Below, in pieces: positions 4,722-35,787 of a stretch of DNA of 64,000 bases; positions within the stretch are counted from its first letter, which is position 1; the number at the start of each line of letters is the position of its first letter. Location of the stretch: contig JAISOY010000066.1 in assembly GCA_031275285.1 (NCBI GenBank), forward strand, positions 1 to 64,000. Direction: 5' to 3'. The translations under genes were made by a program, and so were the position numbers. The DNA is from Bacteroidales bacterium (GTDB taxonomy: Bacteria; Bacteroidota; Bacteroidia; Bacteroidales; UBA4181). A model generated the notes under the pieces. The model searched no databases and was not told the DNA's origin. It was given only the letters and a program-made list of their open reading frames with translations.

Positions 4722-6713
4722 TTATTTCTTTGAAGGGACTAATATAATTGCATCAGCCGGTACATTGCCTGCTCCGTTAGCAAGAATACTCACATGGCTT
4801 TTTTTCCCTTTTGGTAAAGAATAACTTCCTAATAATACCCATTCACCAGAGGTTTGTCCTTCTACCACAACATCGGAAGTCTGAATATTTTTTCGAGTAG
4901 TGTTACCACCATCAAATATATCGATAGATAATTCTTTGGTTAGTTCCGGAATTTTTGGGAGATACGAATAAATATCATACTTCCCTTTACGGGGAATATC
5001 TATATTAAACTTTACAGAGCCAGAACCATTTTTAGATACCAGCATAGTTGGTCCGTAGCAACGATTTTTCTGAATTTCCCATTCACCATCGGTTTCAATA
5101 AGATCTTTATAGTCGTTATCTACCAGGATCTCAAATATGCTTTCATCTGCTAATGGTTTTTCTATTAGTGTATTCTGAAGTTTCTTCACATCGATGTGTT
5201 GTACATCTTTTTTTCCATCAATGGCCATGGATGCTGCAACAGCGGAAGATTGGGCAAGCACCATAAAAACAGGCTCCATACGTATGGAACCGAAAGCAAT
5301 ATGTGTTGAAGAAAGACATACGGGTACCAACAGGTTACGACAGTCTTCCTGTTTGGGCGTGATGGACCGGTAGGCGATAGGGTAGGGGCCGAATCCACCG
5401 ACTTCCACATTCCCTTCATTTTTTACCTGTCCATTGATTACCAAACGTTGACAATTATGGGAATCCATCGTATAGGCCGCCATACCTATCCCATCTTCTA
5501 CCACTTCTTTTCCCTGACAATTGGCTTGGGTCATTACGTAAGCGCCAATCATTCGCCGGGCTTCACGGATATATAGCTGAGGCGACCAATGCCCGTATTC
5601 TACATATTCGTCTTTCGGATAACCCCATTTCAGCATTTCAGTCCTTATTTCTTGCGGTACACGGGGATCATGTCCGAAAAAGTATAGTAATCCTTTGGTA
5701 TATATCTCATGATCTTTAATGATTTTTTCCCGGACTTCATAACTTCCATCGGGATAATCATAATTAGCGCCGATCATATCTGTTGAAAACCCGTTCCGGT
5801 TATTGATGTCCGTTTTATTATTAGGCATACGGCTCCAGATAAAGTAGTCATTTAAGGATTTTTTGTCGGGTTGGGCTTTTATCAGTCGAACCAATAATTC
5901 GTACATGGTTGAGTCATATCCTTCCGGACGGCTAATAGGAACTAAATTGGCAGGATCGGAAGTCAAACAAATACGATAATTATATGCCTGGATTTTTTTG
6001 TCTCCTGTTCCGTTCGGTTCCAGTATATTACCGGTGACGCCCCATACCAGTCCGCTTTCCGGGTTCCCCGGAATTACATAGGGATCTATGCCGTCAGGAA
6101 ACTGGTGTCCGTGCATCAGTTGAACCCCATTGATCGTTTCGTTGTATTCCTTGTTGTCTTCGCGGCCTGTTGCATAAGGAACTCCGGCTTTTGCCATCAG
6201 ATCCCCTTCGTAAGTGCAGTCAATAAACATCCTGGCTTTGATCACCTTATTGTTTTCCGGAGACGGATTTACTGAATTTTCAACCATGATCTCCTTGATG
6301 GAACCGTTTTCTTTTTTTACAGAAACCAGCCTCGAATCATACATAATATCCACTTCACCTTTTTTGATGTAATCAAGAAACAAAGCTTCTGCTACCTTGG
6401 GCTCGAAGATCCATTGTTCGAATTTTCCGTAATGATCTCCCAGGCGACGATAAAAATCACGGGCAAGCCCGGTAATAGCGTATTTATTTCCAATATCAGT
6501 TTGTCCCAGGCCTCCGGAACTTAATCCGCCCAGCCGCTTTCCCGGTTCGATCAGAATAACGCTTTTACCCATTTTTTTAGCAGTATAAGCTGCGATCACT
6601 CCTGCAGATGTGCCTCCGTATACGCAGATGTCAATTTCATCTGATCGATTGCAACTATTTAGCATGACAGGTATTATACAAAATACAAAAAGATAGTTTT
6701 TGATATACTTCAT
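4722..6713 (-). CDS. FAD-dependent oxidoreductase lipoprotein with golvesin/xanthan-lyase-like C-terminal domain
   Basis: The signal peptide ends in a lipobox (LNSC), followed by an FAD-binding Rossmann motif (VYGGTSAGVIAAYTAKKMG, about residues 31-50) and the GGLSSGG and DCTYEGDL motifs of the FAD_oxidored family (PF12831). The last 110 residues form a beta-rich domain resembling the golvesin/xanthan-lyase carbohydrate-associated C-terminal domain. Members of this family are common next to glycan-degrading loci, but their substrate is not established. Oxidation of a sugar or sugar derivative is an inference. The gene is the last of a minus-strand run and is separated from the preceding oxidoreductase gene by 267 bases. 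Total length is 663 residues and the ATG start is unambiguous. Confidence 0.82.
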   Translation of the reverse strand: MKYIKNYLFVFCIIPVMLNSCNRSDEIDICVYGGTSAGVIAAYTAKKMGKSVILIEPGKRLGGLSSGGLGQTDIGNKYAITGLARDFYRRLGDHYGKFEQWIFEPKVAEALFLDYIKKGEVDIMYDSRLVSVKKENGSIKEIMVENSVNPSPENNKVIKARMFIDCTYEGDLMAKAGVPYATGREDNKEYNETINGVQLMHGHQFPDGIDPYVIPGNPESGLVWGVTGNILEPNGTGDKKIQAYNYRICLTSDPANLVPISRPEGYDSTMYELLVRLIKAQPDKKSLNDYFIWSRMPNNKTDINNRNGFSTDMIGANYDYPDGSYEVREKIIKDHEIYTKGLLYFFGHDPRVPQEIRTEMLKWGYPKDEYVEYGHWSPQLYIREARRMIGAYVMTQANCQGKEVVEDGIGMAAYTMDSHNCQRLVINGQVKNEGNVEVGGFGPYPIAYRSITPKQEDCRNLLVPVCLSSTHIAFGSIRMEPVFMVLAQSSAVAASMAIDGKKDVQHIDVKKLQNTLIEKPLADESIFEILVDNDYKDLIETDGEWEIQKNRCYGPTMLVSKNGSGSVKFNIDIPRKGKYDIYSYLPKIPELTKELSIDIFDGGNTTRKNIQTSDVVVEGQTSGEWVLLGSYSLPKGKKSHVSILANGAGNVPADAIILVPSKK

Positions 6714-6980: not shown

Positions 6981-9977
6981 TCAATTACTTAATACTCCTT
7001 TTGCATGACGGGCATAATGATTATGAAAATCATTGGTATATCTTCTCAGGATGGTTTCTCCGAGTGTATCCTTATCACCGCAACGATATAAGGCCCGGGC
7101 CAGGTGCAATTCTTTCAAAACTTTATTCCGTATGGAAGTATCCGACCAATCTGTATTAGTGGCTTTACGTGCTTGTTTATAATTGTCCACCACTTCATTC
7201 CGGATATCTTTTAAATGTAACATTTCATATAGTAAAGGCGCGGAAGAACTATCCCCGATAGATTCAAATGCCATACAAACAGCCCTGAAATGCGAGAATG
7301 TATTTTTTGCTTCTAACTGCTTTGCCAATTTTTCAATAGCAGGTAAGGCTTCTTTTTTACGGGCATTCCCCAATGCAATGATCAGACTGTCCAGATGACT
7401 CATACATGGACCGAATTGCCCCATACCTGTATATGCCCAACCTTTGTCCCATTCTGTGAAACTGTTGATTTTATCGATCAATGCCTGTATACCTACGCTT
7501 TCTCCTAACATGGCAAGGGTTTGCGCATAGTTGATCTGTTCGGCTGTACCGGCTTTCTTTTTGAATTCCTGTTTAAGCAAAGGAAGGGCTTGTTTGGTGT
7601 CTGTAAGCAATATTTCCAGTCCTTCCATATCGTTATGGAGTTTTGAAGCTGCCTCAACGAACTGTGCCTTTGAGAACGGGAAATTATTTTTGTCGGTAAG
7701 TACTCTATCAGGGAGATTACCCATGGATACGAGGTATTGTTGTATTTTCCTGATATCTACCTGCCGTACGGATTTGTTTTCTTTTATTGCGGTAGCTACC
7801 AGGTATCCCACTGCATAACCCTGATTCTGAAGGCATGGTTGCATCCTGATGATGGGCATAGCATCCCTGTGTGCACCGGTTCCCAGACCGGTAACAATGA
7901 TCCCATCCAGACCTTTGGGTAATAATGTCCTTAAAGGAACATCTGCATTATATATTTTATGCCGTTTTTCAGGCGCTTTTAATGTAAAATACGGGTCAAT
8001 AGTGAAACCATGAGTATCGAAAGAACTGGTATGGTATGAAAGTGTATCGGGGTACCGGCGGCCATTGATCACGTCGAGGACAGAAACATTATGTTCTGCA
8101 ATAACCCTGCGTCTTTCACGGGTCTGAGGAATTTTACACAGGTCATAGGAGCCTTTATACTTGGCTTTGGCAGCTACAAAGACCCGCGATACATCCAGTA
8201 TATCCGAATCATCGATAAAGGTCCAGTCATTGTTGTTATAAAAATCGTTCGGATCACGTTTGCATAGACCCGCTCCCTGAACAGCAACAGTATGTTTTCC
8301 GGTATAATCATAACCTGCACCTCCGGCAATGGCTATATCGGCGCTTCCGGTACTGTCTACCACTGTTTTGGCCAAAACAACACCTCTTCCGTAGGGTGTA
8401 GCCACTACTACACCACAAACACGTTTTCCGTCGGTAACAGTGCCACATCCTATAGTACCGAACCATATATTTCCTTTTGCTTTACGTATCTCTTTACGGA
8501 ACCATTCCATTTTCCAATCGGATGGCCATTCAACACTCCAGTTCTTTTTTTGACGGGGATGGTCGAGAGGAGCCATATTCCGTACTCCTGCATCTATCTC
8601 TTTGGTAAAACCTTCGCGGAAACCATCCCAGTAACGGCCGATCAACCCGGTAGTGGTCAGGCCGCCCAGACCGTGCAGGTATTCAATGGTCAGCGTTTTT
8701 ATTCCCTGTCGGGAGGCGCTGATCCCTACCGGAGCACCGGCTGTACCGCCTCCGAGCACTATCATATCATATTCTCCCCATACGGGAAGTTGAATATCGG
8801 ATATTTGGATGGTTCCTTTATGAAAGTCCGGCCTGAGGTAGGAGTTGATTTCACGGGCTTTTGGTTTAATGTTTTCCGCTTTGGATGTATGAACATTCAG
8901 ATCGGCATATGTAGGTTTTGTTATTTTTCCCGATTGTAATGCGACTTCTTTTCCTAATTTTTTTCCTAAATCAATCAACGAAACAGGTCGAAGCATTGTT
9001 TCTGCCACATCGCGGGAGACATCTGCATATCCGTTTAAGAGGTAAAAATTGGTATGTTCTTCAGGCTGCAATGCCTGTATAGGGATATCCTGACCGGTGG
9101 CGGGGGCCTGTAATTTACTTTTCACCTGTTGCGACGGTATATAGTAAAGAAGATCGGCACTATCCACCTGATCAACATCCCAGGTGATATCACGTATTTG
9201 TTGTTCAATCCGGTTTAATGCGTCGAAATCGTTTCCGGCGTCGGGAAAACTGAAGGTGTAACGAAGCGCTTTGTAAGTTTTGTCTTTAACTTTAATCAGG
9301 GTATCTAATTCAACTACTTCGGTGATATGTTCGTTTGTTTTCTTCGAATTTCCTACAACGATGAATTCGTATTGCTGGTTTCCTGAAGTATTACCGGAAA
9401 AAGGAATATGGGCAGCGCGTGCAAATGTGGCATCTAACGTGCCATCGACAACCATCTTTGCGCAGATAGCCTGACAGCCTGAACGATTTGAAATAAGGCC
9501 GCCGGAAATCTGTCCGTTTTTGTTGTATAGAACATCCACGAGATAACTACTGTATAAGAAATTGATATTGTTGGTGATCAATTCGTCTTCGAGTACGGTT
9601 TTCACATGAAGCGGCATGGGAGATACGTTGTTCCGGAATATTTTCTCAGCCATAGACTGGCTGGGATTTTCATCCTGCCACAAACGAAGGGTTCCACAAA
9701 TATCTTCACCCAGATAGGGGAGAGGTGATACCAGAAAGACCGATAAGCCGTTCTGTGCAGCTTCGGAAGCAACAGCAACAGCCCCGGTGCTACCTCCTAT
9801 CACCAGTAGATCAACATCCACGATTACGGGTATGTTATGGGAAGGCAACAGACAATGTTTTGTCGAAGTCAACTGATTGTTCGTATCAGTTAAAGCATAA
9901 GCCATAGATAAACTACTACTACTGATCAACCCGGCTCCAAGGGCTGAAGTTTTAATGAAATTACGTCTGGTATACAT
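6981..9977 (-). CDS. Exported fusion of two FAD-dependent oxidoreductase domains with a helical C-terminal repeat domain
   Basis: A twin-arginine-type signal (RRNFIK, then a hydrophobic stretch to about residue 28) suggests export of a folded flavoprotein. A first Rossmann FAD motif (LLVIGGSTGAVAVASEAAQNG, trimmed view: GGSTGA near residue 61) is followed by DGTLDATFA. A second, complete FAD_oxidored domain starts near residue 410 (MIVLGGGTAGAP) with GGLTTTG, DSTGSADIA and a C-terminal GLGTGAHRDA motif. The last 190 residues are alpha-helical and look like HEAT/PBS-lyase repeats. At 998 residues it is roughly twice a normal family member. The neighbour on the 3' side is another FAD oxidoreductase. 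The first domain may be degenerate and structural. The substrate is unknown. Confidence 0.78.
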   Translation of the reverse strand: MYTRRNFIKTSALGAGLISSSSLSMAYALTDTNNQLTSTKHCLLPSHNIPVIVDVDLLVIGGSTGAVAVASEAAQNGLSVFLVSPLPYLGEDICGTLRLWQDENPSQSMAEKIFRNNVSPMPLHVKTVLEDELITNNINFLYSSYLVDVLYNKNGQISGGLISNRSGCQAICAKMVVDGTLDATFARAAHIPFSGNTSGNQQYEFIVVGNSKKTNEHITEVVELDTLIKVKDKTYKALRYTFSFPDAGNDFDALNRIEQQIRDITWDVDQVDSADLLYYIPSQQVKSKLQAPATGQDIPIQALQPEEHTNFYLLNGYADVSRDVAETMLRPVSLIDLGKKLGKEVALQSGKITKPTYADLNVHTSKAENIKPKAREINSYLRPDFHKGTIQISDIQLPVWGEYDMIVLGGGTAGAPVGISASRQGIKTLTIEYLHGLGGLTTTGLIGRYWDGFREGFTKEIDAGVRNMAPLDHPRQKKNWSVEWPSDWKMEWFRKEIRKAKGNIWFGTIGCGTVTDGKRVCGVVVATPYGRGVVLAKTVVDSTGSADIAIAGGAGYDYTGKHTVAVQGAGLCKRDPNDFYNNNDWTFIDDSDILDVSRVFVAAKAKYKGSYDLCKIPQTRERRRVIAEHNVSVLDVINGRRYPDTLSYHTSSFDTHGFTIDPYFTLKAPEKRHKIYNADVPLRTLLPKGLDGIIVTGLGTGAHRDAMPIIRMQPCLQNQGYAVGYLVATAIKENKSVRQVDIRKIQQYLVSMGNLPDRVLTDKNNFPFSKAQFVEAASKLHNDMEGLEILLTDTKQALPLLKQEFKKKAGTAEQINYAQTLAMLGESVGIQALIDKINSFTEWDKGWAYTGMGQFGPCMSHLDSLIIALGNARKKEALPAIEKLAKQLEAKNTFSHFRAVCMAFESIGDSSSAPLLYEMLHLKDIRNEVVDNYKQARKATNTDWSDTSIRNKVLKELHLARALYRCGDKDTLGETILRRYTNDFHNHYARHAKGVLSN

Positions 9978-16355: not shown

Positions 16356-16560
16356 AGGTGAAAGTAAATATTAACGGATAATATGTTTTTTCAAATATTC
16401 CGGATAGATACCCGGATTGCCTCCAACTATCAGCCGAATTAATAGCAAAAACTTCCGGGTTTTCCCGGTCGGGATAATTCGGCGCCCATAAATTCCATTC
16501 CGGGAGAAGCCACAGGAACAGGATGATCAGAACGGATGGTCTTTCTTTTTTATTTACCAT
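16345..16560 (-). pseudogene. 71-codon remnant resembling the N-terminus of a GH2 beta-galactosidase
   Basis: The translation begins with a signal-like segment and then reads NLWAPNYPDRENPEVFAIN. This is close to the conserved opening of GH2 beta-galactosidases in this phylum, where WENPEVF-x-IN precedes the first jelly-roll strand. After this the similarity stops, and the frame ends overlapping the next start by 11 bases. It also overlaps the GH28 stop by 11 bases. I infer an internal deletion that removed almost the whole GH2 gene while leaving the translational coupling intact. It could still be translated as a short peptide. Confidence 0.45.
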
Positions 16561-18052
16561 TTACCAGGATGTTTTTGCTATTGACTTGTTTTACTTCGGC
16601 ATCTTCAGATAAATTTAGTCTGCCATCCGTCACATCGTCGAAATAAAATACCGGCCTTATATCGGGTTTCCGGGTGATGACGGAAACATTCTGGAAGGTG
16701 ATATTTTTAACGTGCCGTACATAAAAGCCGGATGCAGGCAGCACAGAACCGAACATCCTGTTTTCCGGATAGCCTTTTTCCGCTTCTTTCACGGTTTCTT
16801 CCGCCTGAACTTTTGTTCCTCCTCCGGGAGCTGTGATGTGTATATCTCTCAACGAAATATTTTCGGCATAGGATCCGGGTACCCCTGTTACGGAACAGGC
16901 GATGAGGCTTTCGCTTTGTGCGATAATATGATGGATCTGAATGTTCTTTAAAATGCTTACATTTCCTTTTGAGTAGGTACGTCTTCTGTCTCCCAGCCGG
17001 ATAAACACAGGAGTCTGCACCCCGCTCATCAGAACATTTGAAACGGATATGCCGTCCATCACGCCGCCGTCTACCGATTCGAGCGCAATTCCGGCCAGAA
17101 CGGTCGTATCGCGTTGAATACCGGCAAATGCCGTAGCTTTGTTGGTTTTCCATTTCCGGATATTATCTTCCGATGCACTCCTGACTACGCAGTTGGTGAC
17201 GGTAATATTCCTGAAACCTCCCAAAGAGGCCGTTCCGAATTTTATTGCATTACAGTTGCTTGCCAGTACACAATTGGATACGGTGATATTTTCACATACG
17301 GATGAGAAATCGCTTTTGAAGCATAAAGCATCATCGTCCGTATCAATATAGCAATCGGAGACGATTACATTCCGGCTGTCAATATCCAATCCGTCGTTAT
17401 TGTAATTACAATGACTATAAACTTTTACGCCCCTGATAAAAACGCCGTCGCATTGTTCGTAATCCTGTGTCCAGTATGCGGAATTGCGTAATGTAATATC
17501 CGTTACCGTCACATTTTTGCACTTCCGGAAATAGATGATTTTCGGACGGCGTGGTCCTCCCTGGGAATCATTGCCGTGTTGAAATTCCGCATGCCCTCCT
17601 TGTCCGTTGATCGTTCCATGTCCGGTAACAGAAATATTTTCCTTGTTTTCCGCATATATTAATGCCGGGGATTCTTTTCCTTTCAGTACGGGAAATACAT
17701 CCGAATAGTCTTTTAACCGGGTACTTCCCAGCAGTTCTGCTCCGGCTTCGATGTGCAGGCGGACATTTGAACGCATAAAGAGCGGTCGGGTCAGATATTT
17801 CCCCGGAGGGACAATAACCGTTCCGGCAGATGTTCCGGAACATTGGTCGATCGCTTTTTGTATGATCTCCGTATTGTCTGTTACGCCGTCCCCTTTGGCT
17901 CCCAGATCGGTGATCGTGATCCGGGCATAGGTATTATGGTATACGAAGAACAGAAACAACAGCAGGATGATCTTCCTGTTCAGGTACGGGAAATTTCGCC
18001 TGATTAATGGGCTATTTCCCGGGTATTTTTCAGAGTTTAGTAGGGATATCAA
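16550..18052 (-). CDS. Exported GH28-family glycosidase (polygalacturonase/rhamnogalacturonan-type)
   Basis: A right-handed beta-helix enzyme that hydrolyses galacturonic-acid linkages in pectin. It opens with ITDLGAKGDGVTDNTE, the usual pectate-lyase-superfamily start. The catalytic region shows NNDGLDID and DTDDDALCFKS, matching the NTD and DD motifs of GH28, then AIKFGT in the GHG region. A signal anchor (KIILLLFLFFVY) precedes the domain. No ATG is available: the frame opens after a stop at 18077-18079 and a TTG at 18052 is the best start. It sits between GH105 and a GH2 remnant, consistent with pectin degradation. Exact linkage specificity cannot be read. Confidence 0.86.
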   Translation of the reverse strand: MISLLNSEKYPGNSPLIRRNFPYLNRKIILLLFLFFVYHNTYARITITDLGAKGDGVTDNTEIIQKAIDQCSGTSAGTVIVPPGKYLTRPLFMRSNVRLHIEAGAELLGSTRLKDYSDVFPVLKGKESPALIYAENKENISVTGHGTINGQGGHAEFQHGNDSQGGPRRPKIIYFRKCKNVTVTDITLRNSAYWTQDYEQCDGVFIRGVKVYSHCNYNNDGLDIDSRNVIVSDCYIDTDDDALCFKSDFSSVCENITVSNCVLASNCNAIKFGTASLGGFRNITVTNCVVRSASEDNIRKWKTNKATAFAGIQRDTTVLAGIALESVDGGVMDGISVSNVLMSGVQTPVFIRLGDRRRTYSKGNVSILKNIQIHHIIAQSESLIACSVTGVPGSYAENISLRDIHITAPGGGTKVQAEETVKEAEKGYPENRMFGSVLPASGFYVRHVKNITFQNVSVITRKPDIRPVFYFDDVTDGRLNLSEDAEVKQVNSKNILVNGK

Positions 18053-18221
18053 TGTTTTGGTATATTTATTATTTGACTATTGATGATCTGTTTATCAGAA
18101 ACAAACAGACTTCCGGTTCATTATTTATTATTTACCCTTGACATAACCGATTCGTTCTGATAAAACGAAAGGTTCCATCCTGTTCAAAGCTCTGGTTTAA
18201 GGAGATTTATTTCGGAAAAAT

Positions 18222-19325
18222 CTATTTTTCTAAAAGGGCAACAGTACACCAAAGAAAAGGAGCCTGCCCGTGAAAATCACCAGCCAGACGCGGACGATCA
18301 TAATAATATTGCTTATCATTCTTTTTACCGGTACCGATACAAACCTCGGTTACATTGTTCCGTTCGTCGATGTATGAAACCAAGGCGAGCCATGCTTTCC
18401 GTGCTGCCGGGGCATATTCTTCCTCATTCAGCCATCCTTGTTTTACACCCACGATAAATGCGTAGGTGAACATAGCGGACGAAGATGTTTCCGGCCAACA
18501 ATCCGGTTCGTCAATCAATTGGTTCCACATACCGCTTGGTTGCTGGTATTTTTTTAAACTTTCCATCATGGTAAGGAAGCCTTTCATTATACGCGGACGA
18601 TTGGTGTCATTTTCAGGCAGATAACGGAGTAAATCTGCCATACCTACAGCCATCCATCCATCGCCTCGTCCCCAATAGTAAGGAACATCCGGTGCATGAT
18701 AAAACAAACCGTTCGGACGTTGAAGTTCGTCCAGATACATCACCATTTCCTTTGCGGCCCGGTCCATGTATTTACGGTCTCCCGTCACTAAATAAGCCTG
18801 CATTTGTACAACAGTAATCATGTACATGTCGTCAATCCACAAGCGGGTTTGCCAGGTGTATCCCTTTTCTGCCCAGGCTTTTTCTGCCGGCTTTGCGTTG
18901 TCCGGCACTTTCCATTGTGAATCGGCATAAGCTAATCCCATATCCATATATCGTTTATCATTTGTTATTTGATAAAGTTGCAGGGCTAACCCGCCGAACA
19001 TATTGTAGTCGACATGGTTCATGGGGGGCAACAGTGCTTTTTCCCTTGTAAAGAACGGTTCAAATTTATCCTGCAAAAGTTTGATAAGCTTTTGGTTCTT
19101 TGTTTGAGTAGCATAACCTAATGATCCGATCCAGGTACATACTTCTGCATAATGAATATATCTCCCGGCATACAGGTCATGCCTGTCATCTACAAAATGA
19201 TAGGCTAATCGCTTACCGACCTCTTCAGGTCTGGATCCTTTGGGGAATTTGGTTAACAGATCCTGTTGGGCAAATAAGAATTGAACAGGTAAAAAGACAA
19301 CTAATAAAAACACTTTCTTACACAT
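18222..19325 (-). CDS. GH105-family unsaturated glycuronyl hydrolase
   Basis: GH88/105 enzymes remove the 4,5-unsaturated uronic acid left by polysaccharide lyases. Hallmarks are WIDDMYM (with the catalytic Asp region), PYYWGRGDGW and WPETSSSAMFTYA in an (alpha/alpha)6 barrel. A signal peptide (MCKKVFLLVVFL to FAQ) targets the periplasm. The ATG at 19325 is preferred, although a GTG at 19334 would add three residues. About 367 residues is normal for the family. It lies between the GH2 and GH28 genes of the PUL. No polysaccharide lyase that would feed it is encoded in the window. Confidence 0.88.
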   Translation of the reverse strand: MCKKVFLLVVFLPVQFLFAQQDLLTKFPKGSRPEEVGKRLAYHFVDDRHDLYAGRYIHYAEVCTWIGSLGYATQTKNQKLIKLLQDKFEPFFTREKALLPPMNHVDYNMFGGLALQLYQITNDKRYMDMGLAYADSQWKVPDNAKPAEKAWAEKGYTWQTRLWIDDMYMITVVQMQAYLVTGDRKYMDRAAKEMVMYLDELQRPNGLFYHAPDVPYYWGRGDGWMAVGMADLLRYLPENDTNRPRIMKGFLTMMESLKKYQQPSGMWNQLIDEPDCWPETSSSAMFTYAFIVGVKQGWLNEEEYAPAARKAWLALVSYIDERNNVTEVCIGTGKKNDKQYYYDRPRLAGDFHGQAPFLWCTVALLEK

Positions 19326-19432
19326 ATTTTTCACATTATTAATGATTACGAGGATTTATCTTCTGAATTATTGGTTGTATTACTGCATGGTTTCCCAACG
19401 AGTTGTGGTGTGAAGCACTATCCTTTCATTTG

Positions 19433-23099: not shown

Positions 23100-24488
23100 T
23101 TATATTAATTGTCCTTCTTCTTTGAGTCTTTTCCGGAGATGTTGGATATCTATTTTATGCACATCATTTTTAGATTGTTGAATGGCGTGCATTGCAGCCA
23201 TTCCGGCAGCTTCCCCGGTGACCAGGCATGGGGGCATAACACGCAGGCTTCCATGTGCATAATGATCTGTAGACATGCATCTTCCGGCGACAAGAATATT
23301 TTGCAGGTTTATCGGGGTCAGGCTACGGTAAGGAATACCGTGTGATTCTCCCTTCTTATAACGGGGATAATGAGTGGCGTCTTTTTTATGTACATCTATA
23401 TAATAGGCGTTTCTTCCGATGCTGTCATCGAAATCACGACGGGCCTGCCAATCTTCCAAAGTGAAAGTGTAGTCGCATTTAACTCGACGACTTTCCCTGA
23501 TTCCCAATAATGCACCTGTACCTGCAAGATAGGATGCTGCAAATATATCCGGTCTGAATTCTTTCATCCCTTCATGTAACTGCCGTACCAATTTTCGCCC
23601 CTTCATTATTGACTCTGTAAGTGAAGCCGGATCAAGGCTGTTTACTGTTACATGTCCGGCATTAAAAGCCATATGTGCCGGTCCGACTAATTTATCATTG
23701 AAATGGTGATCGTTGACCATGTCATATTTTTCTGATGCCACAATAGGATGAATAGGACTGTCTTTTCTGTTGTTATGTACCGATCCTGTTAATGAATAAT
23801 GATATTGGTCAATGTTGGATACCGTAAAGCAAAGGGTACCCTGCTGTACGGCTCCACTATTATCTCCCAAATCGAAACCGGCACCGGCCCATGCCGCCAG
23901 ATCCCCGTCTCCCGTACAATCAATGAAAATTTTAGCTTTGTATGCGGTAAGCCCTGATTTATTGGCTACAATAATGGCATCTACCGTGTTTTTATCTTTC
24001 ATTTCCACTCCTGCCATGGTGGTGAATAGTAAAACATTAACACCTTGTCCCGTAACCAGGTCATCATAGACAACTTTGAGGTATTCCGCATTAATTGGTA
24101 CCCAGTCATTACCCTTGAAATGAGGAACCCCTTTCTTGGATTCAAGAAATACCTTTTCGGCGATTCCTTTGTATATGATTTTTTCTCCGTCGGTAAAAGG
24201 ACACCATGCGTTCAACAGTCCGGATGTTCCCATTCCGCCAAGAGCGCCGGTACTTTCTATCAGCAGGGTACGTGCCCCTTCACGTGCAGCAGCCGTTGCA
24301 GCCGCGCATCCGGTTGGTCCTCCTCCCACAACAATAACATCCCATTGGTCATTTACGGATATTTTTGTCTTTTTCAGGGACAATGATCGATCTTTTTCTA
24401 CCAATGTGTTTGCTGCTAATCCGCTACCGGTTGCTGCAGCCATGGCGATCAACCCTGTTTTCTTTAGGAATTCTCTTCTATTGTTCAT
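23100..24488 (-). CDS. Exported FAD-dependent oxidoreductase, PUL copy 2
   Basis: A twin-arginine-like signal (NRREFLKKTG) is followed by the FAD motif VVGGGPTGCAAATAAAREG near residue 55, then GGMGTSG and DCTGDGDLAAWAGA, all typical of FAD_oxidored (PF12831). The last block, AGRCMSTDHYAHGSLRVMPP, includes the conserved GRC..D.a.gs.R signature. It is 462 residues long and closely matches the other PUL copy at 25728-27116 in length and nearly all motifs. It is separated from the WbsX-like gene by 26 bases, so it belongs to the same operon. The substrate is unknown; sugar oxidation is an inference from context. Confidence 0.83.
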   Translation of the reverse strand: MNNRREFLKKTGLIAMAAATGSGLAANTLVEKDRSLSLKKTKISVNDQWDVIVVGGGPTGCAAATAAAREGARTLLIESTGALGGMGTSGLLNAWCPFTDGEKIIYKGIAEKVFLESKKGVPHFKGNDWVPINAEYLKVVYDDLVTGQGVNVLLFTTMAGVEMKDKNTVDAIIVANKSGLTAYKAKIFIDCTGDGDLAAWAGAGFDLGDNSGAVQQGTLCFTVSNIDQYHYSLTGSVHNNRKDSPIHPIVASEKYDMVNDHHFNDKLVGPAHMAFNAGHVTVNSLDPASLTESIMKGRKLVRQLHEGMKEFRPDIFAASYLAGTGALLGIRESRRVKCDYTFTLEDWQARRDFDDSIGRNAYYIDVHKKDATHYPRYKKGESHGIPYRSLTPINLQNILVAGRCMSTDHYAHGSLRVMPPCLVTGEAAGMAAMHAIQQSKNDVHKIDIQHLRKRLKEEGQLI

Positions 24489-25727: not shown

Positions 25728-27116
25728 TTACAAAAATTGCCCTTCTTCTTTAAGCCTTTTCCTGAGATTTTGGATATCAATTTTATGCACATCATTTTTA
25801 GATTGCTGAATAGCATGCATTGCAGCCATTCCGGTAGCTTCACCTGTTACCAGGCATGGAGGCATTACTCTGAGGCTGCCGTGTGCATAATGATCTGTGG
25901 ATATACATCTGCCTGCCACTAAAACATTTTTTAATCCGACAGGTGTCAGGCTTCGGTAAGGAATGCCATGTGATTCGCCTTTGCCATAACGAGGATATTT
26001 GTTGGCGTCTTTTTTATGTACATCTATGTAGTAGGCATTTCTTCCGATACTGTCATCGAAATTTCTTCTTGCCTGCCAGTCTTCCAGTGTAAAAGTATAG
26101 TCACATTTGATACGTCTGCTTTCCCGTATCCCCATTAATGCCCCTGTTCCAGCCAAATAGGAAGAAGCAAATATTTGCGGCGTAAATTCTTTCATCCCTT
26201 CATGAAATTGTCTGGCTACTTTCCTTCCTTTCATCATGGCTTCTGTAAGCGAAGCCGGATCAAGGCTATTTACAGTTACATGTCCGGCATTGAAGGCCAG
26301 ATATGCCGGACCGGCCTGTTTGTCGTTTATGTGAAGATCATTCACCAAATCATATTTTTCGGATTCGATCATCTTAAATACGGGACTATCTCTTCTGCTA
26401 CTCTGGACTGTACCAACCAGAGAGAAATAATAAGGATCAATATTGGATACTGTGAAACAAAGAGTGCCTTGCTGGACAGCACCGTTTTCGTCTCCTAAAT
26501 CAAAATTTGCACCGGCCCATGCAGCCAGGTCACCATCCCCGGTACAATCAATAAAAACTTTTGCTTTATAAGCGGTTAACCCTGATTTATTGGCAACAAT
26601 AACTGCATCTACCGTATTTTTATCTTTCATTTCTACTGCGGCCAGACTGCTGAAAAGCAATACAGAAACCCCTTGTGATATAACTAAGTCGTCATATACG
26701 ACTTTTAAGTGCTCTGTATTGATCGGCACCCAGTCGTTTCCTTTTACATGAGGTACCCCTTTTTTAGATTCCAGAAATACTTTTTCGGCTATTCCTTTAT
26801 AAATAATTTTTTCTTTATCAGTAAAAGGACACCATGCGTTTAGTAACCCTGATGTTCCCATTCCCCCGAGGGCTCCGGTACTTTCGACGAGCAAGGTGCG
26901 TGCACCTTCACGGGCCGCAGCCGTTGCTGCTGCACATCCGGCAGGTCCTCCTCCTACAACAATCACATCCCATGAATTATCCACAGCTATCTTTGTTTTT
27001 TTCAAAGATAAAGGATTTTCTTTGCTCGCCAGTGTATTTGCGGCCAATCCTGTACTGATTGTTGCAGTAATAGTTATCAAACCTGTTTTCTTTAAAAAGT
27101 CCCGTCTGTTACCCAT
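25728..27116 (-). CDS. Exported FAD-dependent oxidoreductase, PUL copy 1
   Basis: It has the same architecture as the copy at 23100: RRDFLKKTG signal, VVGGGPAGCAAATAAAREG, GGMGTSG, DCTGDGDLAAWAGA and a C-terminal AGRCISTDHYAHGSLR block. The two proteins have the same length (462) and differ at scattered positions, which points to duplication rather than coincidence. It starts 4 bases after the stop of the SGNH hydrolase gene, so the two are probably coupled. Being exported and flavin-dependent, it would need periplasmic electron acceptance; none is evident nearby. Function is inferred only to family level. Confidence 0.83.
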   Translation of the reverse strand: MGNRRDFLKKTGLITITATISTGLAANTLASKENPLSLKKTKIAVDNSWDVIVVGGGPAGCAAATAAAREGARTLLVESTGALGGMGTSGLLNAWCPFTDKEKIIYKGIAEKVFLESKKGVPHVKGNDWVPINTEHLKVVYDDLVISQGVSVLLFSSLAAVEMKDKNTVDAVIVANKSGLTAYKAKVFIDCTGDGDLAAWAGANFDLGDENGAVQQGTLCFTVSNIDPYYFSLVGTVQSSRRDSPVFKMIESEKYDLVNDLHINDKQAGPAYLAFNAGHVTVNSLDPASLTEAMMKGRKVARQFHEGMKEFTPQIFASSYLAGTGALMGIRESRRIKCDYTFTLEDWQARRNFDDSIGRNAYYIDVHKKDANKYPRYGKGESHGIPYRSLTPVGLKNVLVAGRCISTDHYAHGSLRVMPPCLVTGEATGMAAMHAIQQSKNDVHKIDIQNLRKRLKEEGQFL

Positions 27117-27120
27117 ATGA

Positions 27121-27816
27121 TTATGTAATATTTAATAGTTTTTTCAGGTAATTTGGATAACTTCCTGCTGTTATGCTATCACCAAAACAAACTACCCTGT
27201 TGTGAGGAAGATTATTTTGCATGATATATTGATATAATGCAATAGCAATTATCCTATAGCCATCCGAAGTCGGATGTAAACCGTCTTTTTTGCCACTGTT
27301 GGCCTCATTTTGAATCAGGCTGTTTCGTTCTTCTCCGACATTACCCACCTTCTCAAAAATGTGATCAATGTCTAGAAATGATAAATTGCATTCTATTGCT
27401 AATTTTTTTAATAAGTTATTCATTTCTAATTTTCTCCCGCTATGCCCTTCCGGTTCGTAAAATTCTTTTTTATGTCTGGTAAACAAATATGGTTCATAGA
27501 CAGGAAGAAGATTCATTAATATTATTCTACTTCCTGAGTCGAGAATTTTGGAAATAATTAACCGCATATTTTTTTCATATTGAGCTATAGGAATATATTT
27601 CATGCTATTCATATCATTAGTTCCTACCATCAAAATGGTTAGGTCAGGTTGGTAAGCCAGACAGTCTTTATCTATTCTTTTGATCAAATCTGCGCTTGTA
27701 TTTCCTCCAATTCCTGAATTAATAAGAAAAGGTTCCTGAGGTATATCAGAAGCCAATAAAAAATCAGACAGATACCAAGTTGCAGATAGTACTGTTAAAA
27801 ATCTACGTCGATTCAT
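27121..27816 (-). CDS. Exported SGNH-type hydrolase with circularly permuted motif order
   Basis: SGNH/GDSL esterases normally carry the catalytic Ser block GDSIT at the N-terminus. Here the mature protein opens with block II (NSGIGGNTS, residues 33-41), then block III (VGTNDM, 64-69) and block V (DGLHPTSDGY, Asp178/His181). It ends with block I (VVCFGDSITAG, Ser214), only 17 residues from the C-terminus. All catalytic elements are present, so the protein can plausibly fold with a helix-to-strand linker near residues 200-207. An RRRFLT signal suggests export. Its position in a pectin-type PUL suggests a deacetylase role. The gene follows a MITE-like element and precedes an FAD oxidoreductase by 4 bases. 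Confidence 0.82.
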   Translation of the reverse strand: MNRRRFLTVLSATWYLSDFLLASDIPQEPFLINSGIGGNTSADLIKRIDKDCLAYQPDLTILMVGTNDMNSMKYIPIAQYEKNMRLIISKILDSGSRIILMNLLPVYEPYLFTRHKKEFYEPEGHSGRKLEMNNLLKKLAIECNLSFLDIDHIFEKVGNVGEERNSLIQNEANSGKKDGLHPTSDGYRIIAIALYQYIMQNNLPHNRVVCFGDSITAGSYPNYLKKLLNIT

Positions 27817-27830
27817 TGTTTTACAATTGA

Positions 27831-27946
27831 TTAAGGGGCTATCTCAAAAGTCGGTTTATCTTCTGGAGAATCCAATATTTGAAATTAATATCGGATAGGT
27901 ACCCGAAGAAATAAGCCTATAAAATACTTTTGAGACACCCTCTTAA
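27831..27946. mobile_element. MITE-like element or insertion-sequence remnant with terminal inverted repeats
   Basis: About 116 bases without coding capacity are bounded by 21-base imperfect inverted repeats (27831-27851 and 27926-27946, 18 of 21 matching) that share the core TCTCAAAAGT. Both ends read TTAA at the outside, which may be part of the repeat or a TTAA target duplication. It separates the SusCD-lipoprotein cistrons from the enzyme cistrons of the PUL. Confidence 0.6.
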
Positions 27947-27954
27947 TTAACAAA

Positions 27955-30316: not shown

Positions 30317-32263
30317 TTACCAACCTGGATTTTGAACCAAATTAGTATTTTTCAATAATTCACCATGCCTGATCGGCCATAAATATTCTTTCTTGCTGAA
30401 TTGCAGATTATATAAAGTGATCAGATTGTAATAATCTTCAGGAACCGTACCCATGATATTCCAAGCTCTAACGGCTCTGTTCATCTCCGTCTCAGCTAAC
30501 AACCAACGGCGAAGATCCCAGAAACGTTTTCCTTCGAAAGCCAATTCGATCATACGTTCTTTTTGAATGATTTCCCGCATACCGGTTTTACTGTTCGGCT
30601 TTTCAGAATATTTGGAATATTGTCTCCAGCTATCAACAACGCCTTGTAATCCGGCTCTATACCTGATGCTGTCTACATAATCATATACTTCCTGGCTTGG
30701 AACGTCAAGGCTCTCATTTAAAGCTTCTGCGTACAATAAATACAGATCGGCCAGACGCATGATCGGGAAAGTAGACTGAACTGTATTTAAAGAGGTTCCG
30801 GCACTGTTGACTTGTGTCTCGATATGGGAGCCTTTTTTTACAAGATAGCCAGTTATAGAATACCTTAGCCCCATATAGTTTCCGGATGGTTTTCCTTTTA
30901 ACATGTAAGTGACCCAAGCCCTCTGATCTTCAGGAGACTGGTCGAAATCTACTTTTCTGCCGTTCCCCAGCCAGTATCCTCCGTCAAAACCAAGGTTAGC
31001 ATAGAACCTGGGTTCACGGTTCATGTTGATTTTGGCTGTCGGATAACCGCTGGTAGTATCCCTGTAAATATAATATTTATGACTCACGGGGGCAACATCT
31101 GTTTTAAACCGATTTTCATAATCATAATTTATATCTTCATCGATAGGCACTCCATTATTGGAATAGAAAAGTTCAACCATCCGCATGGTAGGTGCAATAA
31201 CAGGTTCCGTTGCCGCAAGCGTCGTATGCGATACTAAAAAATGAGGAAGGGTACAACTGGTCAAATCGTTGAGTGTTCCCCAGATAGTTTCACTGTTCCA
31301 TTTTTCAGTTACTACTGTTCTTAAGGTCATCAGCAACTTACTGGTATCGGAAATGCCACTATAAGAAGAGTAAAAAACAGATTGGTTAAATGTATACAAT
31401 TTAAACTGTTGGGCAAGTCTGACGGTATCGATAGCATTTTTGCAGGCATCTTTTGCTCTTTCCCATTTTTGTTTTTCAGTAAGACTGCTTTCAAATAGTT
31501 TCTCTCCCCTGTTATCTTGAAATCCGGCATAATCCGGGTTATTATTGAATAAAGGACTGGCAGCAGTAACCAATATTTCTGCTTTTATAGATAATGCTAT
31601 GGGTTGAGTGATCCTGCGCATTTCATTCGATGTATCGAAAATAATCAGGGGAAGATATGGAACAGCTTCATTGATTAATTGCACAATGTAATCCACACAA
31701 TCGTCAAATTTATCCCGATATACCTTTGTTTCGTCAATGCCGGCATCTACAGGCAAACTTTCTTTTATTAAAGGGATCGGCCCGTATGCCCGTAACAGAT
31801 AGTAATGATAATATGCCTTTAAGAACTTTACTTCGGCAACCCAACGATTTCTGTCATCTTCATTCAAATCGGGTCCTACCTTATGTATATTCTCAAGAAA
31901 TATATTACAATCCCTGATACCCTGGAACAACGCTTTTCCCTGAACAGATCCTTCCCAAAAATTGAAATAAGGTGTATTGGAATTTTGTTGCTGTTTTAGG
32001 AAAAACCCGGCGAAATTTCCCGTTTTCGAATTGGCCCAGGAGTCATATAAAGACCAGGTATCATCACCTCCCATTATGGCAGGATCATAGCGCGGATCAC
32101 CTATAACGGGCAGCCAGGTGTAGCAAGTGGTAAGGTATGATTCTGCTCCGGCCCTGTCGCGAAAAGCATAATCGATAGTTGCTATATTATCCGGGACGAT
32201 ATCCAGATAACTATCACAAGAGCAACATAATAATACGAAAAATATATAATAAATCCGTTTCAT
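30317..32263 (-). CDS. SusD/RagB-family nutrient-binding lipoprotein, left PUL
   Basis: SusD proteins cap the SusC transporter and bind the glycan at the cell surface. The lipobox CCSC and the opening DSYLDIVPDNIAT are typical, followed by TPR-like helices (VKFLKAYYHYYLLRAYGPIPL) and the C-terminal RMIELAFEGKRFWDLRRW and LQNPGW-like endings. At 648 residues it is a normal size. The gene follows susC by 14 bases and precedes the two auxiliary lipoproteins, which is the classical order. Glycan specificity cannot be inferred from the sequence. Confidence 0.93.
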   Translation of the reverse strand: MKRIYYIFFVLLCCSCDSYLDIVPDNIATIDYAFRDRAGAESYLTTCYTWLPVIGDPRYDPAIMGGDDTWSLYDSWANSKTGNFAGFFLKQQQNSNTPYFNFWEGSVQGKALFQGIRDCNIFLENIHKVGPDLNEDDRNRWVAEVKFLKAYYHYYLLRAYGPIPLIKESLPVDAGIDETKVYRDKFDDCVDYIVQLINEAVPYLPLIIFDTSNEMRRITQPIALSIKAEILVTAASPLFNNNPDYAGFQDNRGEKLFESSLTEKQKWERAKDACKNAIDTVRLAQQFKLYTFNQSVFYSSYSGISDTSKLLMTLRTVVTEKWNSETIWGTLNDLTSCTLPHFLVSHTTLAATEPVIAPTMRMVELFYSNNGVPIDEDINYDYENRFKTDVAPVSHKYYIYRDTTSGYPTAKINMNREPRFYANLGFDGGYWLGNGRKVDFDQSPEDQRAWVTYMLKGKPSGNYMGLRYSITGYLVKKGSHIETQVNSAGTSLNTVQSTFPIMRLADLYLLYAEALNESLDVPSQEVYDYVDSIRYRAGLQGVVDSWRQYSKYSEKPNSKTGMREIIQKERMIELAFEGKRFWDLRRWLLAETEMNRAVRAWNIMGTVPEDYYNLITLYNLQFSKKEYLWPIRHGELLKNTNLVQNPGW

Positions 32264-32277
32264 TTTATTCTTTTTTT

Positions 32278-35200
32278 TTAAAATGTAAACTGTACCCCAA
32301 GATTATAAACTTTTTGAATAGGATATCCTAATCCGTTCCCGGCCATTTCCGGATCCCATAATTTAAATTTACTGAATGTAAATAAATTGGTACCACTAAA
32401 ATAAACCCGGAAAGTTTTCATCCTGATTTTATTGGTCAATCTTTCAGGAATGGTATATCCGAATTCAACCGATTTAAGACGCAGGAATGATCCGTTACGC
32501 ATGAACCAGGTGCTGCGTTGTACGTTGTTATTTACCATTTCATTGGCCAGTCTCGGCCATAAAGCATATAGATTACGGTTATCTTCCGACCAGTGATTGT
32601 CTGCATATGCCTGCAGTAATGCATTTTTTGACTGAATGCTACTAGTGCCGTCCGTATCGATAAAAGGAACAGTTGATGGCCTATTTGTCGGATCACTTGC
32701 ATCCGTATTGATCCAGAAACTCCTTTGTCCCAATCCCTGGAAGAAGAATGACAGATCAAATCCTTTATATCCGGCGGAAAGTCCAAATCCATATACTATT
32801 TGAGGTTCTGTCGGAAAGCCGATCGGTACTCTATCCAGATCGGTAATCTGACCATCTCCGTCAATATCTTTGTATTTAATATCGCCACCCATAATAGCAG
32901 CATTACCTCCAAAATTTTGTTCTGGTGAGTTCGATACTTCATAATCGTCAACAAATAAACGTTCAGCTACATAACCGAATTGCTGGGAAACAGGTTCTCC
33001 GATTATAGACCGCCAGGGAGTAGTTGAATAATCTATTTCCTCATATTCGGTATATTCGGTAGTAGCATAAGTAAAATTAGCCCTTCCTGCTACCCATAAA
33101 TCGTGGGTAAAGCTATGTTGATAATCAAGAGAAAGATCTACCCCACTTCCTTTTGCTTTACCAAGATTTGCCTGTGGCGTAGCGGAAAGCCCCATTGTAG
33201 CAGGTACATAGGATCTATTTAATAAAATACCGCTTCTTTTTTCGGTATAAAAATCAAACATGAATTCCAGTTTGTTAAATAGACTCAGTTCGACTCCCAG
33301 ATTCATTTTTTTTGCAGTCTCCCAGGTGATCTTGTCATTGGCGTAACGATCAACTTTTACACCATAACGGGTGTAGTTAAAGTCATATCCGTACTGATAG
33401 GATCTTCCCGATTCAGTACCCATAAGAACTTTAGATAAGTAGAAAAAACGGTCGTCAGCGTCTCCAATGGCGTCATTTCCTACTATACCGTATGTTCCTT
33501 TAAATTTTAATTTTGAAATAACCTTTTTTAAATTATCTGTCCAGAATTTTTCATTAGAAGTAATCCAACCAAAGCCGGCTGATGGAAAGAAACCAAAACG
33601 TTCATTTTTGGCAAATCTTTCAGAACCATTATACCCGAAATTAAATTCAGCGAAGTACCGATCATCGTATGCATATGTTGCTCTTCCGGATAATCCGATA
33701 TTTCTATGAGGTAAAGACAATTCAAAACTTTCAGCATTGGCTTCCGAATAATTTCGCATGGTAAATACCAACATGCCGCTTACAGCATGTTTCTGCAGGA
33801 AAGTTTTGTCATAGGTAACTGCAGCTTCAGTATAGTTGGTGGTTTCGATTTCTTTAGGATCTTCTGTAAATCTCAGCCATTCTTCAGCCTCTCCCGTACC
33901 GGAATTCAGCCATTGTAAGATATACGTATCAGCTTGTTTATCATAAGAAGCTACGGAATAATAATAAGGCTTATATTGTCTCTTGGTACTATGATAGGAA
34001 TAACGATTGGTAGAATACAGAGCCCTTAATGATAATCCGGAAATAATGAAATCCAGATTTTGCTTTAACTCGAATTGTGCCATCATTTTAGACTTGTTAT
34101 AATCCTTATACCCTTTTACCATATCTGCATATGGATTGATATAATTGGCTGTTCCTGAATTTCCGAATAAGATATGGTAGGTATGTTGATTAGCTTCATC
34201 AGGCGCATATTTTGGAGCGAAAAGTACGGGATCCGATCTCATTATCTTCTTATATATCGCATCTCCGCTATCTATTGGTCCTTGATAATCATCAAAAGTA
34301 CCGGACAAACGTACTATGGCTTCAGTCGTTTTTGTAATATTGATGTTGACATTAGAACGTAATAAGTAACGTTTTAAATCAATATTATTGTTAAAATTAT
34401 TCTGTTTGTCTACTTTGAGAATACCATTGTCCTGATTGAATGTTGCGGCCACATAATACCTCGCAATTTTTCCTCCTCCGCTTACATTCATGTTTGCACG
34501 ATAGTTAACGGCATAATCATTACAAAGCATTTCATACCAGTCATTAGCGGGATAAACATACTGATTTCTGTTAGGATCCATCGTATTGTCAATTTTTTCC
34601 CGCGAATAAGGAGCATTTCCGTTTTTATCCCTTGTGAGTACTGCTTCGTTATTCAATTGCATATAAGTAATAGGATCGGCGATTTTGACTTTTTTGGTAG
34701 GTAAAGACAAAGACGTTTCAGCCCTGAAAGATACAGTAGCCTGACCTTCACGCCCTTCCTTGGTTGTAATGGCTATAACCCCATTAGCTCCACGTGCCCC
34801 ATATAAAGCTGTAGCTGTTGCATCCTTCATGATAGAAAAACTGGCAATATCATCCGGTTGCATACGAGACAAATCTGACGATGACATTTCCACACCATCA
34901 ATTAGAATAAGCGGTCCGCTTGCATAAGTTAAAGAGGTGACTCCACGAACAAAGAAACTGGCATCATCCATACCCGGCTCGCCACTGCTCTGGTAAGAAA
35001 CCAATCCTGCAATACGGCCTGCCAATGCGGTTGATAAGTTGCTGCTGGGTACTTTTAATTCACCTGGATTAACGGTGGTAATGGAGGCCAAAACACTTTC
35101 TTTTTTCTGTTTACCAAATGCAACAATGGTTACTTCATCTATGCTGGCGGCTTCTTCCTTTAATACGACAGCAATGATACGGCGTTGTCCTACTGTTACT

Positions 35201-35787
35201 TCCTGGGATTGGTATCCTATAAAACTAAACTGAAGTACGGATGTATCACTGGGAACCGACAGGAGAAATTCACCATTTATGTCCGTCATAATTCCCTGGC
35301 CTGAACCGCGGACAACCACATTAACGCCCGGGAGTAATTCTCCGGAATCATCGGAAACGGTTCCGGTAATTCTTATACCTTGTTGCTGTGGCTTTGACGG
35401 GAGTGTTTCTTTTTCTTTTTCTTTTTCTTTTTTATGAATGATGATATGTTCATCCATTATTTTGTACGATAAATCACTATTAAGTAATAAAGCATCCAAT
35501 AATTCTTTAATGGACTGATCTTTGATATCAATATTTACTTTTTTACTCAGGTCGATCTCATCGGTATAAAAAAAAGAAAAATTGCTTTGATTTTCAATTT
35601 CCTTAAAAATACTTTCCAAAGAAGTGTTTTTGTAACTGAAGGTGAGCTTCTTGGATTGTGAGTATACGTTTGCAGTAATCGTGAAAATACTTGCCCAGAT
35701 AAGCACGCAAATCATTTTGGCTATATTCACTATTTTACGTATTTCTTTTGAGGACAAAAATCCTCCATACTTATTAAATAAATCCAT
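32278..35787 (-). CDS. SusC/RagA-family TonB-dependent transporter with STN signalling domain, left PUL
   Basis: An outer-membrane transporter for oligosaccharides powered by TonB. After the signal (ending VYSQ) come an STN domain (residues 46-116), a KE-rich linker (119-127), a carboxypeptidase-like regulatory domain (139-210), the plug (from about 219, DEVTIVAFGKQKKES) and a 22-strand barrel ending in GVQFTF. The STN domain contacts FecR in the periplasm, so the transporter also reports substrate to the sigma/anti-sigma pair encoded just upstream. The linker is encoded by an in-frame TTTTTC repeat. Length is 1169 residues. Confidence 0.95.
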   Translation of the reverse strand: MDLFNKYGGFLSSKEIRKIVNIAKMICVLIWASIFTITANVYSQSKKLTFSYKNTSLESIFKEIENQSNFSFFYTDEIDLSKKVNIDIKDQSIKELLDALLLNSDLSYKIMDEHIIIHKKEKEKEKETLPSKPQQQGIRITGTVSDDSGELLPGVNVVVRGSGQGIMTDINGEFLLSVPSDTSVLQFSFIGYQSQEVTVGQRRIIAVVLKEEAASIDEVTIVAFGKQKKESVLASITTVNPGELKVPSSNLSTALAGRIAGLVSYQSSGEPGMDDASFFVRGVTSLTYASGPLILIDGVEMSSSDLSRMQPDDIASFSIMKDATATALYGARGANGVIAITTKEGREGQATVSFRAETSLSLPTKKVKIADPITYMQLNNEAVLTRDKNGNAPYSREKIDNTMDPNRNQYVYPANDWYEMLCNDYAVNYRANMNVSGGGKIARYYVAATFNQDNGILKVDKQNNFNNNIDLKRYLLRSNVNINITKTTEAIVRLSGTFDDYQGPIDSGDAIYKKIMRSDPVLFAPKYAPDEANQHTYHILFGNSGTANYINPYADMVKGYKDYNKSKMMAQFELKQNLDFIISGLSLRALYSTNRYSYHSTKRQYKPYYYSVASYDKQADTYILQWLNSGTGEAEEWLRFTEDPKEIETTNYTEAAVTYDKTFLQKHAVSGMLVFTMRNYSEANAESFELSLPHRNIGLSGRATYAYDDRYFAEFNFGYNGSERFAKNERFGFFPSAGFGWITSNEKFWTDNLKKVISKLKFKGTYGIVGNDAIGDADDRFFYLSKVLMGTESGRSYQYGYDFNYTRYGVKVDRYANDKITWETAKKMNLGVELSLFNKLEFMFDFYTEKRSGILLNRSYVPATMGLSATPQANLGKAKGSGVDLSLDYQHSFTHDLWVAGRANFTYATTEYTEYEEIDYSTTPWRSIIGEPVSQQFGYVAERLFVDDYEVSNSPEQNFGGNAAIMGGDIKYKDIDGDGQITDLDRVPIGFPTEPQIVYGFGLSAGYKGFDLSFFFQGLGQRSFWINTDASDPTNRPSTVPFIDTDGTSSIQSKNALLQAYADNHWSEDNRNLYALWPRLANEMVNNNVQRSTWFMRNGSFLRLKSVEFGYTIPERLTNKIRMKTFRVYFSGTNLFTFSKFKLWDPEMAGNGLGYPIQKVYNLGVQFTF
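35405..35436 (-). repeat. Hexanucleotide repeat encoding a Lys-Glu linker in SusC
   Basis: Four consecutive TTTTTC-type units (plus-strand view) encode alternating Lys and Glu between the STN and the carboxypeptidase-like domains. The unit length is a multiple of three, so slippage would change linker length without breaking the frame. Confidence 0.7.

Follow-up and report, generated by a model that had tools for sequence, protein, structure and literature searches.

One open reading frame of the window (the whole 64,000-nucleotide stretch of DNA analysed) most probably encodes an exported, circularly permuted SGNH hydrolase of a widespread family, in which an ordinary active site would be rebuilt and an O-acyl ester would be the substrate; to this reading we give a probability of about 0.88. 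The frame starts with ATG, and its 231-aa product begins with MNRRRFLTVLSATWYLSDFLLASDIPQEPFLINSGIGGNTS and ends with NRVVCFGDSITAGSYPNYLKKLLNIT. Few esterase folds are as common as SGNH, for which a GDS motif near the N-terminus serves as the annotation signature. In the 231-aa protein, the SGNH blocks occur in the order II-III-V-I (G-N-H-S), and block I, with the catalytic Ser, lies within the final 24 residues. The first-pass annotation had claimed this order, and the four blocks were located at the residues that it gave. They are summarized in Table 1 together with other features of the locus.

Table 1. The permuted SGNH gene, its motif blocks and neighbouring genes, in window coordinates; counts refer to the alignment of 61 permuted sequences.
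Feature	Position	Strand	Basis
Permuted SGNH gene P0001, 231 aa	27121..27816	(-)	ORF, Pfam, AlphaFold2 model, rotation scan
Export signal MNRRRFLTVLSATWYLSDFLLA, twin-arginine-like, abutting the block II strand	27751..27816	(-)	Type judged by eye
Block II GIGGN, residues 35-39; G38 is the expected oxyanion-hole Gly	27700..27714	(-)	G35 and G38 61/61
Block III GTND, residues 65-68; N67 is the expected oxyanion-hole Asn	27613..27624	(-)	N67 60/61
Block V DGLHPT, residues 178-183; catalytic D178 and H181	27268..27285	(-)	Both 61/61
Block I FGDSIT, residues 211-216, C-terminal; nucleophile S214	27169..27186	(-)	S214 61/61
FAD-dependent oxidoreductase PF12831, RR-type N-terminus, 4 bp downstream of the SGNH gene	25728..27116	(-)	Pfam; recurrent neighbour of the family
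GH28 (16550-18052) and GH88 (18222-19334), same gene run as SGNH	16550..19334	(-)	
SusD-like (30317-32263) and SusC/TonB-dependent receptor (32278-35787), locus head	30317..35787	(-)	

The SGNH/GDSL superfamily profiles PF13472/PF00657 matched the protein with 73.7 bits versus a curated cut-off of 32.9, and 68.9 versus 23.6, respectively, and the superfamily residues Ser, Gly, Asn, His and Asp were all found (S214, G38, N67, H181 and D178). As the blocks run II-III-V-I instead of the standard I-II-III-V, the protein is a permuted variant and not a standard member of the superfamily. The Pfam profile Lipase_GDSL_2 aligned residues 29-189 with profile positions 34-178 (of 178), so that the first 33 positions, which hold the Ser block, are absent from the front of the protein. 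When phmmer was run against 1yzf and others, the C-terminal GDSIT of the query was paired with the N-terminus of the PDB chains.

The position of the cut was estimated in a rotation scan, in which the mature sequence was cut at every position and each rotation was scored against a profile of 31 canonical SGNH proteins. The best cuts were 202-206, just ahead of the Ser strand, with 126.3 bits versus 104.6 for the unrotated sequence (+21.7 bits). In 14 of 14 relatives, the optimal cut was 6-9 residues ahead of GDS. Three of the four canonical controls scored best unrotated; the fourth (L014) had its maximum at position 208 of 209, where it scored the same as without rotation.

The structure predicted by AlphaFold2 with the 61-sequence alignment is one compact, monomeric domain (mean pLDDT 94.9, pTM 0.90). 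The model is numbered as the mature protein, its residue 1 being residue 23 of the ORF product. The first element is strand 8-11 (block II), and the last ones are helix 162-178, strand 185-190 (Ser) and helix 198-208; a normal SGNH protein opens with the counterparts of the final strand and helix. The superposition on a standard SGNH protein proposed in the first-pass annotation was obtained with VIA-align, which placed model residues 3-180 onto residues 36-190 of canonical 1yzf (Z 17.0, 2.3 Å, 155 aligned), the front of the canonical chain thus being the part unmatched in a sequential alignment. It had also been proposed that this is a clean permutation at the helix-1/strand-2 loop instead of a degraded gene, with a short link from the last helix to the Ser strand. 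Both points hold: the cut of the rotation scan falls at that junction, the predicted element order agrees with it, and in the model the helix ends at 178 and the strand begins at 185. The PDB profile and fold searches gave no G-N-H-S structure among the matches examined, all of them canonical chains aligned from block II, which does not prove that none exists.

The Ser strand and helix 1, which come first in a normal member, would have been relocated to the C-terminus, with a link of ~6 residues joining the former last helix to the Ser strand. The new chain ends would correspond to the former helix-1/strand-2 loop, with the export signal just ahead of strand 2, and folding would rebuild the active site of S214, H181 and D178, with an oxyanion hole made of the S214 backbone, G38 and N67. 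For the three-layer alpha/beta/alpha fold of the superfamily, the model and its superposition on 1yzf speak with confidence; the meeting of S214, H181 and D178 in space, which the first-pass annotation had made a condition, would follow from the model's confidence scores and from the invariance of these residues.

All 61 aligned permuted proteins match PF13472/PF00657. In their alignment, G65 is invariant like S214, D178, H181 and G38, N67 is kept in 60 sequences, and K73, R114, H115, N170 and N173 are near-invariant positions peculiar to the permuted family. This is relevant to a different interpretation, by which the protein would be domain-swapped, its Ser strand working only between two molecules, or would be a non-catalytic binding module. 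Such an arrangement would be in keeping with the terminal position of the Ser segment and with the loss of the block III Asn in some relatives, but we consider it very unlikely, as a monomer was predicted with the above scores, and almost every one of the 61 sequences retains S, H, D and the two oxyanion residues. The relatives without the Asn are four Cyclobacterium members with GMHD as block III, where His replaces the oxyanion Asn, so some family members may be altered or inactive.

A same-order search of 295 genomes yielded three further permuted proteins (55, 32 and 30% identity). A DNA-signature scan for block V followed by block I 73-103 bases on, run over genome contigs of ~85,000 species, returned at least 119 stretches. 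At least 86 further in-frame genes had the permuted order, with GxND (or GxHD), DGxH and GDS in one open frame, and the spacings in the 86 genes listed were 31-32 residues for II-III, 100-114 (mostly 113) for III-V and 33-36 for V-I. The hosts in the matches listed were Bacteroidota (Chitinophaga, Pedobacter, Larkinella, Formosa, Zobellia and others), Lentisphaerota, Verrucomicrobiota and Planctomycetota bins, and one Chloroflexota (Anaerolinea) bin. The search for homologs sharing the motif order, put forward in the first-pass annotation, therefore led to at least 86 genes in several phyla and, judging by their sequences, the G-N-H-S proteins are a widespread family.

The same genes bear on the reservation, made earlier, that the motif order could be an assembly or frameshift artefact, in which a misjoin in a normal or tandem SGNH gene displaced its Ser block to the end. 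The assembly to which the window's contig belongs has 225 contigs and an estimated contamination of 1.39%, but the at least 86 independent in-frame genes of other organisms, many of them from isolates or from complete or long contigs, have the same order and spacings, and a Runella defluvii protein, which the tree places nearest to the copy under study, shares 65-66% identity with it over the domain. With so many relatives in the II-III-V-I order, an assembly error was rejected, and the chance of an artefact is practically nil.

In the searched genomes of the same genus and family, the permuted gene was found in the source genome only, so it is sporadic there. A phylum-wide profile search found it in at least 4 of 395 genomes, which is a lower bound because seven candidates per genome were scored. 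The plasmid search for permuted relatives gave 14 records, all with a coverage of less than 80% of the protein; the plasmid matches listed stop at block V, so the permuted order is not indicated on plasmids.

Concerning the domain architecture, the block II strand of the single-domain relatives follows the signal sequence immediately (e.g. ...GVSAQVINAGVGG), and the signals of the relatives are, by inspection, of the RR, Sec or lipoprotein type. Fusions were found at the front with a right-handed beta-helix (Pfam Beta_helix was matched in L060 and fell below the cut-off in L082, and L064, L095, L109, L122 and L138 resemble beta-helix fusions in length or sequence) and at the rear with a T9SS tail (L119), and in Lentisphaerota, front regions without a family assignment precede the permuted domain. 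The occurrence of fusions at either side indicates that the domain moves as a unit. The seven beta-helix-like proteins, together with L046, are of ~670 aa (two were seen in part), with the beta-helix-like region ahead of the permuted SGNH domain; such fusions occur in Flavobacteriaceae and Arcticibacter and offer a clue to the substrate. Separately, in the Cyclobacterium proteins L053, L073, L076 and L113, a same-frame alpha/beta-hydrolase-like region with GHSYGG (by eye) was observed behind the permuted domain.

To study the origin of the family, the permuted sequences were re-ordered and placed in trees among canonical ones. They formed one clade (support 93/94) when a long-branch canonical group was omitted; with this group included, one permuted clade was not rejected (AU p 0.226), though the best tree needs two changes. 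The deeper branching is uncertain: in the 57-row tree, the permuted rows required two changes, and the all-row tree was disturbed by long canonical branches. It is possible that the permutation had more than one origin, or that the normal order was regained by reversion; the constant spacings favour one rearrangement. The simplest route would be a single ancient rearrangement, e.g. tandem duplication, fusion and loss of the outer parts, followed by later spread among Bacteroidota and Lentisphaerota/Verrucomicrobiota/Planctomycetota. On unsystematic inspection, the fetched loci contained no direct intermediate in which two fused SGNH units each keep their Ser block. The copy under study groups with Cytophagales and Chitinophagales copies and this, together with the absence of the gene from the other searched genomes of its genus and family, suggests a horizontal gain.

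Among known systems, AlgJ, AlgX and PatB1 are circularly permuted SGNH-type O-acetyltransferases with the order H-S-G-N/Y and altered motifs (PMC9487903, PMC4148444, PMC5697884). AlgJ and AlgX (AlgX family) and PatB1 (DHHW family) are likewise natural SGNH permutants, exported or extracytoplasmic, and act on polysaccharides (PMC9487903, PMC4148444). However, the AlgX and DHHW families run V-I-II-III (H-S-G-N/Y) and are cut between III and V, whereas the present family is cut between I and II. They also have Tyr or other residues for Asn, GTSYS/KDS as block I and DxH/DHHW as block V, in contrast to FGDSIT and DGLHP here. Membership in these families was rejected on order and motifs, and the Pfam results for the window protein and the 61 members list no AlgX or DHHW match. 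The canonical SGNH/GDSL proteins (1yzf, BT0569 4hf7, AlAXEase 7ddy, Axe2 3w7v) have the same fold elements, four blocks and catalytic residues, with 20-27% identity over ~155 residues, but their order is S-G-N-H; the present family is G-N-H-S, with the Ser strand and helix 1 at the C-terminal side, and has the additional conserved K73, R114-H115, N170 and N173. The AxeA1 acetylxylan esterase (NCBIfam NF042968) gave a weak local match in all 61 members (60 residues in the window protein), and since it scored 25 versus a cut-off of 700 and covered only a segment, AxeA1 is not of the same family. In the literature searched, no paper was found on the order G-N-H-S, and no publication on permuted SGNH proteins in polysaccharide utilisation loci or on PF12831 with polysaccharide (subscription papers were outside the search). 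The G-N-H-S permutation of the SGNH fold seems to be undescribed.

A second permuted SGNH group was also observed, with the order V-I-II-III (H-S-G-N) and standard DGxHP, GDSIT and GxND motifs. Its members are L034, L043 and L058 (Acidimicrobiales MAGs) and L055, L093, L107 and L136 (Lentisphaerae/Verrucomicrobia MAGs). The chains end ahead of the usual block V site, and immediately downstream of L055 lies a similar gene. A model of this group from 7 sequences reached moderate confidence (pLDDT 74, pTM 0.77), and in a Foldseek search with it a CE3 esterase ranked third (31% identity, 143 columns), after weak HDAC matches.

As to the function of the G-N-H-S protein of the window, its gene run contains GH2 and WbsX-like genes besides those of Table 1. 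The presence of GH28 and GH88 in the same run suggests a galacturonan-containing substrate here, and the pectin-type context proposed earlier is reasonable. The sequence is best read as that of an exported esterase acting on carbohydrate O-acyl (probably acetyl) groups by an ordinary Ser-His-Asp mechanism and belonging to a galacturonan-type locus. Its substrate would be a sugar or oligosaccharide supplied by the locus (SusC/SusD, GH28, GH88, GH2), from which it would remove O-acyl groups, most likely O-acetyl. Its activity, acetyl specificity and substrate, like its route of origin, are what we infer, and the earlier 'perhaps a deacetylase' is kept with its 'perhaps'.

It is conceivable, but rather unlikely, that the protein is active and not a deacetylase: it might transfer acyl groups, or it might hydrolyse a different ester (methyl ester, feruloyl, lactyl). 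The permuted SGNH proteins already known (AlgJ/AlgX/PatB1) are O-acetyltransferases (PMC9487903, PMC4148444), but the motifs found here are of the hydrolase type (GDSIT, GTND, DGxHP), unlike the GTSYS/Tyr/DxH of AlgJ, and no MBOAT-like gene occurs among the listed immediate-neighbour families or the scanned window genes. The family-specific K73, R114, H115, N170 and N173 hint at a special substrate, and a flavoprotein partner is unusual beside a plain acetylesterase; on the other hand, the solved structures nearest to the model include the acetyl xylan esterases Axe2 and AlAXEase and a sialate O-acetylesterase.

Regarding this flavoprotein, PF12831 was matched by 32 of 88 neighbour proteins from related loci, far above any other family. 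A PF12831 gene lies no more than 1.5 kb away in 37 of the 86 listed permuted loci (~43%), in each case on the same strand, versus 0 of 31 canonical loci; the latter had short flanks, similar to those of the permuted loci, and were a separate sample drawn mostly from the same order. In the matches listed, PF12831 is directly downstream in 18 of the 25 members with an RR signal, versus 3 of the 41 without it, 8 of which have it upstream. The adjacent flavoprotein probably acts on the same substrate as the SGNH protein. The neighbours in other genomes vary (SASA esterases, CstA, 3-keto-disaccharide hydrolase, GH92, GH20), and with such varied glycan genes the family as a whole is unlikely to share one substrate such as pectin.

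Other observations concern the surroundings of the gene. The PF12831 genes 23100-24488 and 25728-27116 are 82% identical over their full length, with a WbsX-like gene between them, a local duplication. The window has two other PF12831 genes, one at 4722-6713, which also encodes a Golvesin_C domain, and one at 6981-9977. A small MITE-like element (27827-27950) separates the SGNH and DUF4998 genes; its terminal inverted repeats are imperfect and 25 nt long (TTGATTAAGGGGCTATCTCAAAAGT / ACTTTTGAGACACCCTCTTAATTAA), and six more partial or near-complete copies of the element occur in the same genome (74-98% identity).

A broader proposal, which we advance tentatively and at somewhat less than even odds, is that the G-N-H-S proteins are a new multi-phylum family, often working with a co-exported PF12831 protein as a pair of enzymes for a glycan that is acylated and oxidisable, and that, considered together with the H-S-G-N standard-motif group, the SGNH fold has been re-cut more than once. 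In practical terms, with GDS at the far C-terminus, the family members are easily misnamed as truncated GDSL proteins, and C-terminal tags or trimming could damage their active site. The natural pairs of permuted and normal proteins, of one fold and 20-35% identical, are material for studying the origin, folding and export of permutants, and the recurrent flavoprotein neighbour amounts to a concrete functional prediction for glycan-degrading loci. If true, the two separately permuted groups would show that the SGNH fold was re-cut at different loops on more than one occasion.
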